Source: Blautia sp. An81 (GTDB lineage Bacteria > Bacillota > Clostridia > Lachnospirales > Lachnospiraceae). From it: a DNA stretch of 64,000 nucleotides. The stretch is from assembly GCF_002161285.1 (NCBI RefSeq), contig NZ_NFHH01000001.1, positions 62,001 to 126,000 of the forward strand. Reading direction: 5' to 3'. A program made the position numbers and the translations under genes. Positions within the stretch are counted from its first letter, which is position 1. Every line of letters starts with the position of its first letter. Below the pieces are notes generated by a model. The model ran no database searches. It was not told the origin of the DNA and was given only the letters and a program-made list of their open reading frames with translations. This document shows, in pieces, positions 1-9,600 of the stretch.

Positions 1-1661
1 CGGGAGAAAAAGTCTTCCGAATCTTTTCCCTCCAGCTCTTTCAATATCTTCTGGACTTCTTTTGGCCGAATCTCCTCTTTGCTCTTCTTTACCTTTACTC
101 CGGCTCTGTGTACCAGTTCCAGTACAGGTTCCATTTTTTCCATATCCGGAGTATCATGGGTCCGATATACAAAAGGAATCCCTGCCTGGGCATACTCCTG
201 GGCAACTGTCTCATTGGCAGCCAGCATAAAGTCCTCGATGATCCTGGTAGCCACATTCTGTTCATAGGGATAAATCCTCACTGGTTTTCCATTTTCATCC
301 AGCTCTATCTTGCTCTCCGGAAAATCAAAGTCTATGGCTCCTCTTTTCTTTCTCCGCTTTCTCAGAAGAGCAGAGAGCTCTTCCATCTGGAAAAACATAG
401 GCAGCAGCTCTCTGTATCGTTCTGCCAGCTGCTGGTCTTCTTTTCGAAGGATTTTTTTTACGTCTGTGTATGTCATCCTTTCATTTACATGGATCACAGT
501 CTCCGCAATCCCATGGGAAACCACTTTTCCCTTTTCATCAATATCCATAAGGCAGCTAAGGGCCAGACGGTCCTCCCCGGCATTTAAGGAACAGATGCCG
601 TTGGAAAGCTTTTTGGGCAGCATGGGAATCACCCGGTCTACCAGATAAACACTGGTTCCTCTCTTTAAGGCCTCCCGATCCAAAGCGCTGCTGTACTGGA
701 CATAATTGCTCACGTCTGCAATGTGGACACCCAGATGGAAAAGATTTCCCTCTTTAGAAAGGGAAACCGCATCATCCAGGTCCTTGGCGTCTTCTCCATC
801 TATAGTGACCATAGGCACATCACGGAGATCCAGTCTGCCATAGAAATCTCCCTCGTTAAGAGATTCTCGTATCCTCTCTGCCTGATTCAGTACCTTTTCC
901 GGAAATTCCATGGGAAGTCCGCAGCTTTTGGCCACACTGAGCACATCAATGCCTTTCTCCTCTGAATTTCCTAAAACCTGAATGATCTTTCCTTCGGGAG
1001 ATCTTTTTCTGGTCCCATAGTCCCGGATCTCCACCACTACTTTATCCTGGTTCCTGGCTCCCAGAAAGTTCTCCTTCTGTATAAAAATATCCCTCAGAAA
1101 TCTCTGATTATCCGGAACAACAAAGCCGAATCCGGCAGACTCCTGAAAAGTGCCGACGATTTCCCTGGTGCCTCGTTCCAGGATCTTTATCACCCGGCCT
1201 TCCCGTCTTTTTCCCGGTTTATTTTCTTTTTTCAGTGCAACCTGCACCTTATCTCCGTGAAATGCCCCGCCTGTCTCTTCCTCAGGAATATAGATATCCT
1301 CTCCATTTTCATCCAGAAGCTCTACAAATCCAAATCCCTTTGCATGTCCTGCAAAAATTCCAATAAGATACTTCTGGGTTTCTTTCTTTTTCTTCTCTTT
1401 CTTATCTCTTTTTCCTTTTTTCTCTTCTTTTTCCTGTTCCTTTTTGGAACCCCTTACTGCTTCATATTTTCCTCTTTTATTTACAGTGATCTTTCCTTCC
1501 TTCAGGAGCATGTCCAGGATTTCATGAAGTTCCTCTCTTTTTCCCGCCGGCACCTGAAGGAGTACGGCCAGATCTTTTGCCCTCATAGGCTGATACTCTT
1601 TACAGCATATAAGATCATATACAATTTTTTTTCTTTTTTTAGTCTGTTGATTTTTCTTCAA
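1..1661 (-). CDS. rnr: Ribonuclease R (3'-5' exoribonuclease), 3' end beyond window
   Basis: This is a processive, hydrolytic 3'-5' exoribonuclease of the RNB family. It degrades structured RNA and works with SmpB/tmRNA. The start is a TTG at 1659-1661, five bases after a perfect AGGAGG (1667-1672); no better ATG is in frame. The N-terminus is Lys-rich, followed by a winged-helix-like segment, a highly charged Lys/Glu linker, cold-shock domains, then the RNB core. The catalytic signature GEDAKDLDDAVSL lies near 750-800. The frame stays open to base 1, so the S1 domain and stop are missing from view. It lies downstream of secG, as in many Firmicutes (secG-rnr-smpB), but a terminator-like hairpin and a second hairpin separate the two genes. 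Confidence 0.95.
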   Translation of the reverse strand, partial: MKKNQQTKKRKKIVYDLICCKEYQPMRAKDLAVLLQVPAGKREELHEILDMLLKEGKITVNKRGKYEAVRGSKKEQEKEEKKGKRDKKEKKKKETQKYLIGIFAGHAKGFGFVELLDENGEDIYIPEEETGGAFHGDKVQVALKKENKPGKRREGRVIKILERGTREIVGTFQESAGFGFVVPDNQRFLRDIFIQKENFLGARNQDKVVVEIRDYGTRKRSPEGKIIQVLGNSEEKGIDVLSVAKSCGLPMEFPEKVLNQAERIRESLNEGDFYGRLDLRDVPMVTIDGEDAKDLDDAVSLSKEGNLFHLGVHIADVSNYVQYSSALDREALKRGTSVYLVDRVIPMLPKKLSNGICSLNAGEDRLALSCLMDIDEKGKVVSHGIAETVIHVNERMTYTDVKKILRKEDQQLAERYRELLPMFFQMEELSALLRKRRKKRGAIDFDFPESKIELDENGKPVRIYPYEQNVATRIIEDFMLAANETVAQEYAQAGIPFVYRTHDTPDMEKMEPVLELVHRAGVKVKKSKEEIRPKEVQKILKELEGKDSEDFFS

Positions 1662-2067: not shown

Positions 2068-3402
2068 TCAACCGTTTTTCTCAATGTTTTTCCAGGGGCT
2101 TATATAGAGGCTGTGACTGCCCAAACGGTCTTCAATGGCCAGAAGCCGGTTATATTTGGCTGTCCGTTCTCCTCTGCAGGGAGCCCCTGTTTTAATCTGC
2201 CCTGCTCCCATGGCTACCGCTAAATCTGCAATAAAAGTATCCTCGCTCTCCCCTGAACGGTGGGAGATCACTGGATTCCACCCTGCCTTCTGTGTCATCC
2301 TCACAGCCGCCACGGCCTCTGTAAGGGTGCCGATCTGGTTTACCTTGATCAGCACTGCATTACCGGTCTTCTGACAGATACCTTTTTCTATTCTCTTTAC
2401 ATTGGTCACAAAAAGGTCGTCTCCCACAAGCTGTACTCTACTGCCCAGTTTCTCTGTCATCAGTTTCCATCCATTCCAGTCCTCTTCCCACAGACCGTCC
2501 TCAATAGAAACTATGGGATATTCCTCCAGAAGTTTTCCATAGTAGTCCACCATTTCCTGGGCAGTCCTCAGGATTTTTTCTCCTGTCATAGAGGATTCTC
2601 CCGGGAAATAATATGCTTTTTCCTCTTCCAGATACAGCTCACTGGCGGCTGCATCCATAGCAAAAGAAATATCCTTTCCCGGTTCATAGCCTGCCTCTCT
2701 GACTGCAAGGCTCATAAAGTCCAGTATCTCTCTTGCGTCTTTTACATCTGGAGCAAAGCCACCTTCGTCTCCTACTGCGGTGGACAGGTTTCGTTCCTTT
2801 AATATAGATTTCAGTTTCTGATAGGTCTCTGCACACATCTGCAGAGCCTCTTTAAAACAGCAGGCCCCTGTGGGCATGATCATAAATTCCTGGAAATCTA
2901 CCGTATTGTCTGCATGTTTTCCGCCGTTTAGGATATTCATCATAGGCACAGGCATTCTGTCTGTGATACAGCCTCCCAGATACTGATACAGAGGCAGGCG
3001 GAGAGCTTTTGCAGAGGCGTCGGCCACTGCCAGGGAGACCCCCAGCATAGCATTGGCTCCCAGATGTTCCTTATTCTCTGTGCCGTCTGCCTCCAGGATC
3101 AGTCTGTCAATCTGGCTCTGGTCCAGGGCATTCTCTCCCAGAACAGCGTCAGCCAGCTTGGTATTTATATTGCTCACCGCCTTCTGTACGCCCTGACCTC
3201 CATAACGTTTTTCACCGTCCCGGAGCTCAAGAGCCTCAAATTTTCCAGTTGAAGCGCCGGAGGGCACAATTGCTTTCCCCGTATACCCGTCTTTCCCCAC
3301 AACGCCTTCTCCGACTGTAACTTCCACTTCCACAGTGGGATTTCCTCTGGAGTCCAGCACTTCTCTTCCATATACTTTTCTAATTGGCAAATACCTTTCC
3401 AT
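2068..3402 (-). CDS. eno: Enolase (phosphopyruvate hydratase)
   Basis: Cytosolic glycolytic enzyme that dehydrates 2-phosphoglycerate to phosphoenolpyruvate with Mg2+. At 444 residues it is slightly longer than typical (about 430), partly from a short insertion before VPSGASTG. Visible motifs: [14 protein letters not shown] at the N-terminus, [15 protein letters not shown] (metal Glu/Asp), [12 protein letters not shown] (catalytic Lys) and SHRSGESED (His/Arg/Ser loop). The ATG is preceded by AGGAGG. It follows a small membrane protein by 15 bp. gpmI, the preceding pathway step, lies just upstream but behind its own terminator. Confidence 0.97.
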
Positions 3403-3417
3403 AGCAATACCTCCTGA

Positions 3418-3810
3418 TCATTTTGGACTTCTTTTTTGTTTCCACGCCAGAGCCAGCAGGCATGTCTCACTGATGGTCCACAAAAATATCATCTCCATCC
3501 ATTGAGCTCTGCCCTCTGCCTCCATAGTCTGTATTTTTTCCGTCTCCTGTTCATCCGGGGTATCTTCCATCCTGAGTTCCAGGGCTGACATCTGTTTTTT
3601 CTTATTGATCTGTATTTCTGTCTTATATTTTTTCTGGTCCAATGCATAATATTCCCCGGTTTTTATGTCCCAAACCAGGTATTTTCCTGGAAACTTATCT
3701 ATGAACCTTCCTCTGACAGCTTTTCCAGCCAGTATTACACAGCACAGGGATAAAAGCAGCAGCAAAAATATCTTTTTGATTTCATTTTTTCTTTTTTTGC
3801 TTTTTTTCAT
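3418..3810 (-). CDS. Small basic membrane protein of unknown function
   Basis: I do not recognise this 130-residue protein. The chosen ATG (3808-3810) has GGAAAGGGGA upstream; an in-frame start 36 bases further up lacks a good ribosome site. The N-terminus is very Lys-rich (MKKSKKRKNEIKK), then comes a hydrophobic helix (about 14-32), a polar middle with a Glu/Met/Thr-rich stretch, a second hydrophobic segment (about 103-122), and a basic tail. It ends 15 bp before eno and is probably cotranscribed with it. Function cannot be inferred. Confidence 0.65.
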   Translation of the reverse strand: MKKSKKRKNEIKKIFLLLLLSLCCVILAGKAVRGRFIDKFPGKYLVWDIKTGEYYALDQKKYKTEIQINKKKQMSALELRMEDTPDEQETEKIQTMEAEGRAQWMEMIFLWTISETCLLALAWKQKRSPK

Positions 3811-3966
3811 ACACAGTCCCCTTTCCCAGGGAACAAAAAGGTGCAAACTCCCCGGAAACCGGCTGTTCTCTTTTCCCTGTTCATATTCAGTTTCTCTGTC
3901 TGCATTGATTTGGAATTTTGGCCGAATGGCCGGATTTAGAAATTATGATATCTGAAGTGTGATTTT

Positions 3967-3995
3967 ATCTTAGCACTGCCTTCCGCAGAAAACAA
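3967..3995 (-). promoter_or_regulatory. Candidate sigma-A promoter for the small protein and eno
   Basis: Minus-strand TTGTTT (3990-3995) and TAAGAT (3967-3972) are separated by 17 bp in the gap after the gpmI terminator. The -35 is weak, so this is only a candidate. Confidence 0.35.
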
Positions 3996-4060
3996 TACCG
4001 GAATACTTTACAAAATCCATTGAATTTTTCTCCTGGAAATTTAGTAAGTATTTTAGATGG

Positions 4061-4100
4061 AAAAAGGAGCCTTCACACCAAGCAAAAGTGTGAAGGCTCC
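4061..4100 (-). terminator. Rho-independent terminator after gpmI
   Basis: A 13-bp perfect stem (GGAGCCTTCACAC and its complement) with a 9-nt loop is followed on the minus strand by TTTTT. It begins 13 bases after the gpmI stop. Confidence 0.95.
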
Positions 4101-4113
4101 AGTCCTAAACATC

Positions 4114-5655
4114 TTATTTTTTGATCAGTAAAGATTTTCCTGTCATTTCAGCAGGCTGCTCCATTCCCATCATCTCGATAAGAGTAGGCGCGATATCTGC
4201 CAGGCAGCCTCCTTCTCTTAATGTATAAGAAGGATCTGCATTCACCAGGATAAATGGTACAGGATTTGTTGTATGTGCAGTGAAAGGAGCTCCTGTTTCA
4301 TAGTCAACAAGCTGCTCTGCGTTTCCGTGGTCTGCACAGATAAACATCTGTCCACCTACTTCTTTCACAGCTTCTACAGCTCTTCCCACACACTCGTCTA
4401 CAGTCTCAATAGCTTTGATAGCTGCTGCTTCCACTCCAGTATGACCTACCATATCAGGATTTGCAAAGTTGATGATGATCACATCATATTTTTCGGACTT
4501 GATCGCTTCTACCAGTTTGTCGCATACTTCATAAGCGCTCATTTCCGGTTTCAGGTCATAGGTAGCAACTTTCGGGGATTTTACCAGGATCCTGTCTTCT
4601 CCTTCATTTGGCTCCTCAACACCGCCGTTAAAGAAGAAAGTTACATGCGCATATTTCTCTGTCTCTGCAATACGGGCCTGTTTCAGTCCGTTGGCAGCAA
4701 GAAATTCTCCAAAAGTATTCTTAATGGATACCTTGTGGAAAGCTACCTCTGTATTAGGAATTGTAGGATCATACTCTGTAAAGCATACATAGGTAAGGTC
4801 CAGTCTCTTCTCTCTCTCAAATCCTGTAAAATCATCTGCGCAGAAAGCTCTGGTGATCTCTCTTGCTCTGTCAGGACGGAAGTTAAAGAAGATAACGGAA
4901 TCTTTATCCTGGATCCTTCCCACTGGCTGTCCGTCTTTTACGATCACGGTAGGAACAACAAATTCATCTGTCTTTCCTTCTTCATATGAAGCTTTTACAG
5001 CGCATACCGGGCACTCAGCCTGAATGCCTTCCCCTTTTGTAAGAGCTTTGTAAGCCAGTTCCACACGGTCCCAGCGGTTATCTCTGTCCATGGCATAGTA
5101 GCGTCCCATTACAGATGCAACCTGTCCTACGCCGATTTCTTTCATCTTATCATTTAATTCCTGGATGTAGCCTTTTCCCCCTGTAGTAGGTGTATCTCTT
5201 CCGTCCAGGAAACAGTGCACGAATACTTTCTCCAGTCCCTCTCTCTTAGCCAGCTCAAGAAGCCCGTACACATGAGTATTATGGCTGTGAACGCCACCGT
5301 CAGAAAGGAGTCCGAAAAGGTGAAGAGACGCATTATTTTCTTTTGCGTTGCGAACTGCTTTTAACAGCGCTTCATTCTTAAAGAAATCCCCGTCCTGAAT
5401 CTCTTTTGTGATCCTGGTAAGCTCCTGATATACAATACGGCCTGCGCCCATGTTCAGATGTCCTACTTCAGAATTTCCCATCTGACCTTCAGGAAGTCCT
5501 ACGGCCATGCCGCTGGCATTTCCTTTTACAAATGGGCACTGAGACATCAGCTGGTCCATAACAGGTGTCTTGCCTTCGCATACAGCATTGGCCTCACAGT
5601 TATTGTTCAGACCATATCCATCCAGAATCATTAATACGGTTGGTTTTTTACTCAT
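4114..5655 (-). CDS. gpmI: 2,3-bisphosphoglycerate-independent phosphoglycerate mutase
   Basis: Interconverts 3- and 2-phosphoglycerate through a phosphoserine intermediate; Mn2+-dependent and cytosolic. The 513-residue length is normal. The alkaline phosphatase-like core shows MILDGYG (metal Asp), [15 protein letters not shown] (catalytic Ser), and late ADHGNAE and AHTTNPVP metal motifs. The ATG follows AAAGGAGA. It has its own sigma-A promoter and terminator, so it forms a single-gene unit beside eno. Confidence 0.97.
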
Positions 5656-5706
5656 GACGATTTCTCCTTTATCTCAAATTTCTCTTGTTCCTTATGTCCG
5701 TTTATT

Positions 5707-5734
5707 ATTTTAACAGAATTGCAGGATTTTTCAA
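5707..5734 (-). promoter_or_regulatory. Sigma-A promoter of gpmI
   Basis: TTGAAA (5729-5734), a 16-bp spacer and TAAAAT (5707-5712) read on the minus strand, about 50 bp upstream of the gpmI start and just past the stop of the upstream transporter ATPase gene. Confidence 0.6.
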
Positions 5735-5739
5735 TAAAT

Positions 5740-6483
5740 TTATAAGACCTTAGACAGAAATTCCCGCAGTCTTGGATTTTTCGGACAGGCAAAAAATTCC
5801 TGAGGCGGAGCGTCCTCCTGTATATTGCCTTCGTTGATAAAAAGCACCCGGCTGGCTACTTCTCTTGCAAATCCCATTTCATGAGTCACCACGACCATGG
5901 TCATGCCTGACTGGGCCAGTTCTCTCATAATTTCCAGAACCTCTCCCACCATCTCCGGGTCAAGAGCCGACGTAGGCTCGTCAAAAAGCATTACGTCTGG
6001 ATTCATAGCCAGAGCCCGTGCAATGGCTATCCTTTGTTTCTGTCCCCCTGAAAGACTGCCGGGATAAGCGTCTGCTTTATCTGGAAGCCCTACTCTCTTT
6101 AAAAGCTCTTCCGCTCTCTGAGAAGCTTCTTCAGGAGTCATAAGCTTCAGAGTCACAGGAGCCAGCATGATATTTTCTTTTACTGTCTTATGGGGGAACA
6201 GATTAAACTGCTGAAATACCATTCCAATCTTCTGGCGGTGGCGGTCAATATCCACCTTCGGATCTGTAATATCTACATTCTCAAACAGTATTTTTCCCCC
6301 GGTAGGTACCTCCAGAAGATTCAGGGAACGAAGAAAGGTAGATTTTCCTGAGCCTGAGGGGCCGATAATGGCAACTACCTCTCCTTTATGTATCTCTGTA
6401 CTAATACCGTCCAGAACTTTATTTTCTCCAAAATGCTTCTGAAGATTTTCTACCTTTATCAGTACTTCACCTTTAGTGGTCAC
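5740..6483 (-). CDS. Polar amino acid ABC transporter, ATP-binding subunit (GlnQ/HisP type)
   Basis: Cytoplasmic ATPase that powers amino acid uptake with the permease and binding protein encoded just upstream. Its 247 residues carry Walker [10 protein letters not shown] (about 40-48), a Q-loop FQQFNLFPH, signature LSGGQKQR, Walker [13 protein letters not shown] and switch His VVTHEMGFA. This matches the GlnQ/HisP/ArtP branch. The start is GTG (6481-6483), ten bases from AGGAGG (6494-6499), inside the last 11 bp of the permease gene, suggesting translational coupling. The actual substrate is not determinable. Confidence 0.95.
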
Positions 6484-7165
6484 TTCTGCGCAGCCTCCTT
6501 TCCACCTTGCCCATGAAATAGGTCAGCAGCATTACCAGCACCAGATAGAAAATCGCTGCTGAGATCAGCGGTACAAAGGCGCTGTAAGTACGGCTCTGCA
6601 CTAAAGTAGCTGCTTTTGTAATATCTATTGTGCCGATATAACCAATGATAGCCGTTTCTTTTAAAAGCACGATCATTTCATTGATCAGTGCTGGCAGGAC
6701 ATTTTTAAAAGCCTGGGGCATAATGACCAGTTTCATGGTCTGGCCTGAGCTCAGACCCAGACTTCTGCCTGCTTCCATCTGCCCCTTGTCAATAGACATA
6801 ATACCGGAGCGGACAATTTCTGCCACATAAGCCCCTGAATTGATTCCAAAGGCAATACCGCCGATAATAATATTATTCAGGGGTATACTGGCAAAAACTA
6901 CAGAATAAAAAATCAGTATCTGAATCATAGACGGGGTTCCTCTGATGACTGTCAGATAAACCACACATATGGCATTCAGCAGCTTCAGTTTTCCGGTCTG
7001 CTCATGGGCAGAACGGATAAGGGCCACCAGAAATCCCAGGACCACACCGATGCACAGGGCCAGAAGGGTTACTAATATTGTGGTCTTTAATCCGTTGATC
7101 CACCACTCAGAGGCGCCGTTGTCTACAAAATACCGCTGAAACCCATGCTGGAGATTTTCCCACAT
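6473..7165 (-). CDS. Polar amino acid ABC transporter, permease subunit (HisM/GlnP family)
   Basis: Integral membrane subunit that probably acts as a homodimer forming the translocation path. The 230 residues include about five hydrophobic segments and the EAA loop [20 protein letters not shown], which docks the ATPase. An N-terminal amphipathic stretch precedes the first helix. It sits between the binding-protein gene (34-bp gap) and the ATPase gene (11-bp overlap) and starts at an ATG behind AAGGAGG. Confidence 0.95.
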
Positions 7166-7199: not shown

Positions 7200-8000
7200 T
7201 TATTTTCTTACGATAACAACCTGGGTAGCTTCTGCATAGGTATCTGTAAACTCTACGCTCTCTTCTCTCTCCGGTGTAACTGTCATACCCGCTGCGCCAA
7301 AATCTGCTTTTCCTGTATCTACAGAAGTAAGGATAGCTTCAAAAGCCATATCTTCGATTTTCAGCTCATATCCCAGTTTATCACAGATTGCCTGGGCAAT
7401 ATCAGCGTCGATTCCTACAATTTCATCTCCCTCTTTATACTCCCAGGGTTCAAATTCCGCATTGGTAGCCATGGTCAGAGTTCCATTGGAACGGTCCACA
7501 TCTGCCGGAGACTCATAGGGATGTTCTCCAATCTCATCACCAATATAATTGCTCTGGATTTCATCCAGGGTTCCCTCTTCTTTTAACTCTGCCAGGGCCT
7601 CATTAAAGGAATCTCTCAGTTCTGTATTGCCTTTTTTCATACAGATAGCATATTCTTCTGTTTCAAAAATCCCGTCTACGATCTTAAGATCATCATTTGC
7701 CTCTACAAACTTCTGGGCAGGAAGGGAGTCGATAACCACACAGTCTACCTTTCCGTTTTTCAGAGCCTGGATAGCGTCTGCTCCCTTATTGAAACGGTTC
7801 ACCTGGGAATCCTCATTTACAGCTTCTGTAGCTGCTGAGTCTCCTGTGGTCCCGATCTGGACACCAATATTAAGCTCTGCCAGATCTTCTACAGAAGTTA
7901 CCTCTACAGGTTCTGAAGATGCCTGGTTTCCTCCGGAACAGCCTGCTGCAGTGAGAACCATAGCAGCGGCACAAAATGCTGCGAATACTTTTTTCTTCAT
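7200..8000 (-). CDS. Amino acid-binding lipoprotein with circularly permuted SBP_bac_3 fold
   Basis: Extracellular binding component of the adjacent amino acid transporter. The start at MKKKVF (7998-8000) is chosen for GGAGAGG just upstream; a longer in-frame reading lacks one. A signal peptide ends in LTAAGC (lipid-anchored Cys21). Odd feature: residues about 37-152 (SVEDLAELNIGVQIGTTGD through EGTLDEIQSNYI) match what is normally the second part of the family. Residues about 173-266 (GTLTMATNAEFEPWEY, IVGIDADIAQ, GMTVTPERE, ending VVIVRK) match what is normally the first part. An acidic/Pro-containing linker of about 20 residues joins them. Both parts occur once and look complete, so this reads as a permutation rather than a truncation or duplication. 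Confidence 0.9.
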   Translation of the reverse strand: MKKKVFAAFCAAAMVLTAAGCSGGNQASSEPVEVTSVEDLAELNIGVQIGTTGDSAATEAVNEDSQVNRFNKGADAIQALKNGKVDCVVIDSLPAQKFVEANDDLKIVDGIFETEEYAICMKKGNTELRDSFNEALAELKEEGTLDEIQSNYIGDEIGEHPYESPADVDRSNGTLTMATNAEFEPWEYKEGDEIVGIDADIAQAICDKLGYELKIEDMAFEAILTSVDTGKADFGAAGMTVTPEREESVEFTDTYAEATQVVIVRK

Positions 8001-8099: not shown

Positions 8100-8128
8100 A
8101 TTATATCAGCTTTTATAAGAAATATCAA
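8100..8128 (-). promoter_or_regulatory. Sigma-A promoter of the amino acid ABC transporter operon
   Basis: TTGATA (8123-8128), 17 bp, then a consensus TATAAT (8100-8105) on the minus strand, about 100 bp before the lipoprotein start. It overlaps the end of the upstream L,D-transpeptidase gene. The leader shows no clear riboswitch or T-box. Confidence 0.75.
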
Positions 8129-9600
8129 TATACCACTACCGGAGTATTTACCTCTATATTTTCATAAATGGTTCTGGCGTTCTCCAAAGGTGTATTAATG
8201 CACCCATGAGAGCCATTATAGAGATAAATGTCTCCCCCGAAGCTGCTCCTGGTTGTCAGGTCATGAATACCTACTCCACCGTTAAAGGGCATCCAGTAGT
8301 TTACAGGAGTTTCATATTCAATGGAACCGTCAGGGTTTCTGCCTACAAGAGTGGAGGGACTTGCCTTATCTTTCAGTCTCCATACTCCTCCTGAAGGAGT
8401 TCCATTTCCTGCATTGGGATTTCCCGTTACCACAGGGGTATCTACAAGAAGCGTTCCGTTTTTATAAAACCACATTCTCTGCTCACTGATGGAAATTTCC
8501 ACGTAGGTTCCGTCTATATCATTGCCCCCATGCTTTTGTCCGGAATAAAGCCAGGTAGGTTCCACGGCTCCGCTCTGTCCGGCATTCAGCATATTTACCA
8601 GGGACTCTGTAGTCTTATCCTGCCACAATCTCCATCCATAATCTCCCTGAGTCAGATGCACTGTGTTTCCATTGGAAGTAACAAAATCCCTGGGCTGTCC
8701 AATGGTATTATATTTTTCAGACCAGGCAATGACTGTCTGCTTTACTGTCTCTGTGTCGAAATAATAATTTCCGTCCCCGCCTTTTTTCAGCCAGGATTTC
8801 AACTGGTCTCTGGTCACCGTTTCTGTTCCCGTTCCAAAATTCAGGCTGGCCTGGAGGCTTGTAAATTTATTCAGCTGCTCTGCCTCTTTTTTCAGATTTT
8901 CATCATCCTGGTATACTGCCGGCTTCACATAACAGTCTGTTTCTTCCAGAGAAACCTCTGTCTGTCGCTGGTCTACTGCAGATTTAATGGCTGCAAGTGT
9001 CTTTTCTTTATCCAGAGTCGTTCCCTCTACTTCCGGAATAATTTCATAGGAAGTTCCATTATCCTCCACTCTGGCGTCCTGTACAGGCGTCATGTTGGCA
9101 TCCTGCATACAGGACAAGGCAGCTACTGCCTGGTTCAGACTTTCTTCATTATAAGAACTGTCTGCATTTACTGTATAATTTTTATCCCCAAAAATCTGTA
9201 CAGGCCAAAGCCAGGAATTTTGTTCTGCCTTTACCTGCTGGGCTCCGTTATCATCCTGGTAGGACAGCTGGATCGTAGTTCCATCGATAGTCTCTGTCTG
9301 CTCTCCTCTTTCTTTAATTGTCAGGGAATAGGTCTCCGCACTGTTTTTCAGAAGTTCTCTGACATATTCCGTATCCTTTCCTCCACAGTCAATACCGTTG
9401 ATCATGGTCCCGGGATAAAACTTATCCTGATAATAAACTCCTACCCCTGCATATCCTGCAAGAATCACCGCTGCTCCCAGTCCCAGACCAATTCCCAGAG
9501 CTTTTTTAGATTTCTTTTTACTCTTCTTACCGTTTCCCTTCTTCAGCTTTTTGTCAGCCTTTTTAAAAGCTTTCAGTTTCTCTTTTTTATTGTCTTTCAT
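8125..9600 (-). CDS. L,D-transpeptidase, membrane-anchored (YkuD domain)
   Basis: Cell-wall enzyme that makes 3-3 peptidoglycan cross-links or attaches proteins to peptide stems. The 491 residues begin with a Lys-rich cytoplasmic tail (1-33) and one transmembrane helix (about 34-57). An extracellular region resembling the peptidoglycan-binding domains that precede YkuD comes next. The YkuD catalytic domain is C-terminal (from about 365, YVEISISEQRMWFY) with GIHDLTT and the active-site motif SHGCINTP. The ribosome site is weak (AAGGAT, far from the ATG). It is divergent from the radical SAM gene; the gap carries a large foldback element. Confidence 0.92.
   Translation of the reverse strand: MKDNKKEKLKAFKKADKKLKKGNGKKSKKKSKKALGIGLGLGAAVILAGYAGVGVYYQDKFYPGTMINGIDCGGKDTEYVRELLKNSAETYSLTIKERGEQTETIDGTTIQLSYQDDNGAQQVKAEQNSWLWPVQIFGDKNYTVNADSSYNEESLNQAVAALSCMQDANMTPVQDARVEDNGTSYEIIPEVEGTTLDKEKTLAAIKSAVDQRQTEVSLEETDCYVKPAVYQDDENLKKEAEQLNKFTSLQASLNFGTGTETVTRDQLKSWLKKGGDGNYYFDTETVKQTVIAWSEKYNTIGQPRDFVTSNGNTVHLTQGDYGWRLWQDKTTESLVNMLNAGQSGAVEPTWLYSGQKHGGNDIDGTYVEISISEQRMWFYKNGTLLVDTPVVTGNPNAGNGTPSGGVWRLKDKASPSTLVGRNPDGSIEYETPVNYWMPFNGGVGIHDLTTRSSFGGDIYLYNGSHGCINTPLENARTIYENIEVNTPVVVY

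Follow-up and report, generated by a model that had tools for sequence, protein, structure and literature searches.

Organization of the Importer Locus

The window analyzed here, a stretch of 64,000 nucleotides from Blautia sp. An81, carries on its minus strand the genes of a putative polar amino acid ABC importer. The binding-protein gene (7200..8000, minus strand), identified from its ORF, Pfam and phmmer matches, and rotation scores, is in frame with zero internal stops and encodes 265 amino acids plus Met, the latter being left out of the residue numbering. The gene begins with a signal peptide (7938..8000) which, as read from the sequence, ends in a lipobox cysteine (TAAGC; Cys 20). This is followed by lobe B, the canonical second half, which now comes first (7530..7901, residues 33-156; SVEDL...IGVQIGTTGD...SNYIGDE) and was delimited by phmmer, HMM, and structure. 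A linker of about 15-20 residues (157-171; 7485..7529, from the sequence) then bridges the former C- and N-termini, and lobe A, the canonical first half, stands last (7203..7484, residues 172-265; GTLTMATNAEFEPWEY...VVIVRK; Pfam, phmmer, HMM, and structure), with the stop directly behind VVIVRK. On the same strand lie the permease (6473..7165; PF00528 and TIGR01726 above cut-off) and a GlnQ-like importer ATPase (5740..6483; PF00005, with GlnQ as the best NCBIfam model, below its cut-off); these matches agree with the sequence-only reading, which had taken both neighbors to be intact. In most loci of sufficient length, the permease and ATPase genes were also found 3' of the binding-protein ORF. 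Upstream of the importer, positions 8125-9600 of the minus strand encode an ordinary L,D-transpeptidase (YkuD) that also carries a peptidoglycan-binding domain.

The Two Lobes Are Encoded in Exchanged Order

In Pfam, the window protein matched SBP_bac_3 (PF00497) in two stretches (E 5.4e-37, 126.9 bits vs. a cut-off of 26.4), and the NCBIfam models of GlnH, ArtI, and lysine/arginine/ornithine binding also gave two stretches each. When searched with phmmer, 108 distinct PDB sequences matched at E 0.001, and in all three alignments among the matches listed, both halves matched one canonical chain in reversed order; in AncQR (4zv1), for example, residues 171-265 aligned with chain positions 9-104 and residues 33-153 with 109-232. 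Against a canonical profile built from 73 distinct A-B ORFs, the protein as encoded scored 145.9 bits (best stretch, covering profile positions 99-215 only), about half of the 294.5 bits (positions 1-215) that it reached after the halves were exchanged. A second copy of either lobe was not present within about 1.5 kb on either side of the gene (locus L045), and searching the complete genome with PF00497 returned the two halves of this gene and two further places on other contigs. The sequence-only reading had proposed a circular permutation in which each half is present once and the termini have moved to the first hinge crossing; the alignment, the rotation scores, and the predicted structure (see below) support the permutation and the position of its ends, and the lack of a second lobe copy adjoining the gene supports the single halves. 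Judged from these matches, the window protein is a permuted relative of the SBP_bac_3 family and not a canonical member, since the family match extends over both lobes and the canonical A-then-B order is absent. Pfam labels it SBP_bac_3 like any other, so the family name alone hides the permutation.

Permuted Relatives and Cut Sites

The same lobe order was present in related genomes, where the sequence-only reading had suggested searching for it, including a dozen loci at 79-90% identity; the nearest relatives belonged to the genera Blautia, Fusicatenibacter, and Scatomonas. A contig scan across genomes yielded 40 loci, comprising 28 with the B-A order, 10 canonical, and 2 cut-off pieces. In a family survey of 299 genomes, 224 had a match at 1e-20, and at least 63 contained a single hit across both lobes in the B-A order, a count from which G195 was excluded because its B-A hits stem from an (A-B)x3-permease ORF. 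With segment HMMs, the distinct ORFs were resolved into 75 B1-B2-A, 23 B1-B2-A-permease fusions, 73 A-B1-B2, and 43 B2-A-B1-like (41 CP2 and 2 CP3), numbers that mirror locus sampling and are not frequencies.

Four permutation cut sites were distinguished in the phylum of the window, each located either at the hinge or within lobe B. The CP1 cut, that of the window gene, lies at the hinge before the SxEDL helix; the CP1x cut lies after this helix, which is moved to the C-terminus (L028, L029, L031, L032, and in family f97 L251 and L268-L271); the CP2 cut (B2-A-B1; 41 ORFs) separates the PAxxFV helix from the LKIL strand; and the CP3 cut lies inside B1 (family f152: L233, L236, L239). When placed on the model, the three non-hinge cuts fall in helix-to-strand loops of lobe B. 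A less biased survey, in which a natural tandem A-B-A-B was the query, covered 316 genomes of the window's class and found a match in 228. The 150 matches listed included 115 canonical, 19 CP1, 13 CP2, 1 tandem, and 2 that were left unclassified (G406 and G497, the latter lying at the edge of its contig); a lobe A cut was seen in none of the classified rows among these 150. Rotation raised the score against the canonical profile in all 75 distinct B1-B2-A ORFs (66 CP1 and 9 CP1x; median 147.4 to 292.9 bits, least gain 56.4) and in 41 of 41 B2-A-B1 ORFs (157.6 to 198.6), and in 0 of 73 canonical controls (331.5 to 169.4).

Several tandem and fused forms were encountered as single cases: (A-B)x3-permease (L085), (A-B)x2 (L240), (A-B)x2-permease (L242), and (B-A)x2-permease (L235). 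In L085 (G195, 2913-5831, minus strand), an ORF of 973 residues holds three very similar canonical A-B domains and a permease, by the look of it a recent tandem triplication, and in L235/L272 (G810) two tandem permuted B-A domains are joined to a permease in an ORF of 779 residues. Divergent fusions of a binding domain with a permease, from another SBP_bac_3 subfamily and apparently permuted too, were found in L094, L266, and L267. The B1-B2-A-permease gene of L108 (G209) lies in two reading frames, being either broken or affected by a sequencing error, and the permuted binding protein of L030 comes from a contig binned with an archaeal MAG (Methanocorpusculum), as a result of either gene transfer or contamination.

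It is most improbable that the window gene is a tandem A-B-A-B remnant, a mis-assembly, or a frameshift merely resembling a permutation: tandem ORFs exist (L085, L240, L242) and yield B-A hits, as happened in G195, but the window gene is one intact ORF with each lobe once, the signal peptide directly before B, and the stop directly after A, the B-A order is held by 28 of the 40 scanned loci, and the gene is under purifying selection (see below), so that the intact single-copy ORF and its orthologues in many genomes refute the tandem-remnant and mis-assembly explanations and rule out a frameshift as the cause of the order.

Predicted Structure, Function, and Selection

An AlphaFold prediction made with 29 same-order sequences, the alignment input being same-order homologues only, gave a confident two-lobed fold (pLDDT 88.9, pTM 0.82), and the two ten-residue blocks covering the linker had a mean pLDDT of 88 and 95. 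A single-sequence model was too poor for use (pLDDT 39.6). When compared with the model (VIA), domain 2 of TmArgBP fitted residues 28-113 and domain 1 fitted residues 126-260, and the three best whole-chain matches were OpuAC chains. Order-bound Foldseek comparisons gave weak matches (query TM-scores of 0.30-0.47 among the 50 matches listed), as expected with a permuted chain. The structural matches listed for the model are, by their names, presumably type II-like.

The canonical arrangement of lipid anchor, lobe A, and lobe B is changed in the window protein to lipid anchor, lobe B, linker, and lobe A. From the lobe matches, each lobe would be one continuous stretch with a single hinge crossing remaining, and the protein would be tethered at the hinge via lobe B instead of lobe A. 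The amino acid would be bound in the cleft, upon which the protein would close and deliver it to the adjacent permease and ATPase as usual. With a short hinge and one crossing left, lobe B of one chain might instead pair with lobe A of another in an obligate domain-swapped dimer, and a domain-swapped dimer of TmArgBP has reportedly been described; however, AlphaFold packs both lobes of one chain together (pTM 0.82), and we regard obligate swapping as very unlikely.

The amino acid clamp of SBP_bac_3 consists of an Arg in lobe A and of Asp and Thr/Gly in lobe B. These positions are retained in the window protein, and T50, G52, D90, and R244 are invariant in the 29 permuted sequences. Compared with L005, the window gene showed a dN of 0.053 and a dS of 0.896, and with L007 a dN of 0.066 and a dS of 1.282; four further pairs pointed in a like direction. 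The low dN relative to dS indicates purifying selection on the window gene and, together with the conserved clamp positions and the intact permease and ATPase genes, suggests a working importer. We consider it highly probable (roughly 90%) that the product of the window gene, an SBP_bac_3 protein in circularly permuted form, works as the binding lipoprotein of an ABC importer for polar amino acids.

Repeated Origin of a Permuted Order

Phylogenetic relationships were analyzed in a maximum-likelihood tree of 136 rows with all segments in canonical register, which was midpoint-rooted and in which the bootstrap was not fully settled. In this tree, CP2 needed four changes, all four forced by starred branches. 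The CP2 row L145 grouped with canonical L171 (100/99), L147 with its canonical congener L180 (100/99), and L109 with canonical L033/L040/L163 (99/87), and 15 CP2 rows formed a separate clade (100/100). Likewise, the CP1x row L028 grouped with canonical L037/L039 (100/98). The pairings were repeated in a tree of 118 rows built by a quick method from other genes than the binding protein, namely the permease and ATPase: L147 with L180 and L028 with L037/L039 (99) on starred branches, and L145 with L171 (93) and the L109 group (94) on unstarred ones, the starred branches forcing three CP2 changes. L227 (CP1) and L233, L236, and L239 (CP3), related proteins from two families, differ in their cut sites as if the ends had moved, and L227, L233, and L239 form one clade in the 136-row tree (100/92).

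A single CP2 origin was rejected on both data sets (p-AU 8.5e-5 for the binding protein and 0.0053 for the permease and ATPase). Joining L028 to the main CP1 group was rejected in a post hoc test (p 0.033) that left nested long-branch rows free, a first test having forced them out (p 0.023). In AU tests on an earlier 125-row tree without four long-branch rows, neither one B-A origin (p-AU 0.355) nor one B2-A-B1 origin (0.823) was rejected; rejection of the latter came after wider sampling. As judged from these sequence trees, the B2-A-B1 (CP2) cut arose more than once.

A Permutation in Place within One Genus

Within genus g354 (family f45), the CP2 genes of G494 and G355 and the canonical gene of G382 occupy a syntenic locus, which shares the ORF clusters c11, c14, and c13 upstream and the permease, ATPase, c12, and c9 downstream, some of the neighbor clusters being antisense ORFs. 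The upstream side of canonical G430 and G452 was likewise common to the g354 locus, and CP2-bearing G602 had zero upstream clusters in common within the stretch compared. When L276 was compared with L277 by blastn, the upstream region and signal peptide were collinear (-1597..124 with -1598..124), positions 127..275 then corresponded to 700..848 (81%) and 328..842 to 160..689 (83%), and collinearity was resumed thereafter, which places the last ~150 bases of the canonical coding region directly behind the signal peptide. Exchange at the DNA level was also found for L282 (from the L145 genome) vs. canonical L284, for L289 (from the L109 genome) vs. L033, and for L031, L029, and L028 vs. L037 or L039; in L289 vs. 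L290, the A-B1 part alone was visible at the DNA level. These results show that at least one permutation, that in genus g354, came about in situ, by rearrangement of a gene already present at the locus. Permutants may arise via tandem duplication followed by partial deletion; tandem ORFs of the (AB)n as well as the (BA)2 type were encountered.

If instead the B-A order were ancestral, the canonical forms of the group would be derived, for which the midpoint rooting of the trees leaves room and the deep branching of divergent B-A proteins (L155, L157, L158, L159, L227) would speak. However, the three solved relatives among the phmmer matches listed are A-B, the canonical gene is present in five of the eight examined g354 loci, and the permuted tree representative of g354 pairs with one canonical member of the genus, which makes a B-A ancestor improbable.

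Neutral By-Product or Adaptive Change

The permutation might be a neutral by-product of frequent tandem duplication, the move of the anchor to lobe B having no effect, an explanation that we hold to be plausible at somewhat under even odds. It is favored by the presence of tandem forms, by canonical and permuted genes adjoining the same permease at syntenic loci, and by permutants seemingly without a lipobox. Against it, the 32 permuted survey rows among the 150 matches listed cluster at two positions, none in lobe A, and one cut site was used on more than one occasion. The lipobox, as defined by a strict pattern, was present in 61/66 CP1, 18/23 permease-fusion, 8/9 CP1x, 2/3 CP3, 41/41 CP2, and 71/73 canonical ORFs, several of the misses being due to the strictness of the pattern; canonical relatives are lipid-anchored as often as permuted ones. 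A lipobox is apparently lacking in four permuted proteins (L020, L021, L053, L069), which might be secreted or attached by other means; this weakens explanations of the permutation that invoke the anchor.

We tentatively put forward, as a possibility that we would not yet bet on, that in gut Bacillota permutation has been recurrently adaptive for tethered proteins that bind amino acids, because the anchor is shifted from lobe A onto lobe B and the clamshell is thereby held differently with respect to the permease. If so, independent cuts at the hinge or in a helix-to-strand loop of lobe B would each have shifted the lipid anchor to lobe B. In glutamate receptors, the ion channel is attached at two hinge points, the first membrane helix following on from lobe A; on the adaptive reading, the B-A-permease fusions would have their membrane attachments at the same two hinge points.

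Comparison with Known Systems

Circular permutations in natural proteins tend to be treated as individual ancient events. Here, one transporter family combines four cut sites, the repeated origin of one of them, permease fusions, tandems, and syntenic loci with and without the permutation in one genus. Gut bacteria have thus made such swaps repeatedly, in one instance among the species of one genus. This variety within one family makes both the DNA-level route to permutants and the effect of anchor position on transport testable. In those parts of the open-licence literature that were covered, no report of permuted SBP_bac_3 proteins was found, which is weak evidence of absence; a family with multiple cut sites and a permutation within a genus were likewise not encountered there.

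GlnH, HisJ, TmArgBP, and AncQR resemble the window protein in sequence, lobe folds, clamp positions, and permease/ATPase operon; in contrast to them, the window protein has its halves swapped, its anchor on lobe B, and probably one hinge crossing instead of two. GlnPQ has tandem substrate-binding domains joined to its permease. Such tandems (SBD tandem 6h30), like L085, could be a source of possible intermediates, with the canonical order kept within each domain. The window protein had no Pfam match at E 0.001 to PF04069, the OpuAC family. OpuAC, the glycine betaine-binding protein of B. subtilis, has a permuted type II topology to which the window model appears similar, a likeness and not membership; its ligand differs, and its permutation separates distant families and is not recurrent inside one. 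Among proteins that bind glycine betaine, permutation is already known from structures, and OpuAC is one of the cases (PMC2395249). According to Brautigam et al., Tp0684/TpMglB-2 of Treponema ("Type Ic / Cluster Bc") is, like the window protein, a naturally circularly permuted, tethered binding lipoprotein, and differs from it in its Type I fold, its glucose ligand, and the fourth hinge crossing that its permutation introduces (PMC4990184). It was suggested there that the permutation of TpMglB-2 may suit membrane anchoring (PMC4990184), an idea that the set of permutants described here fits without proving it.
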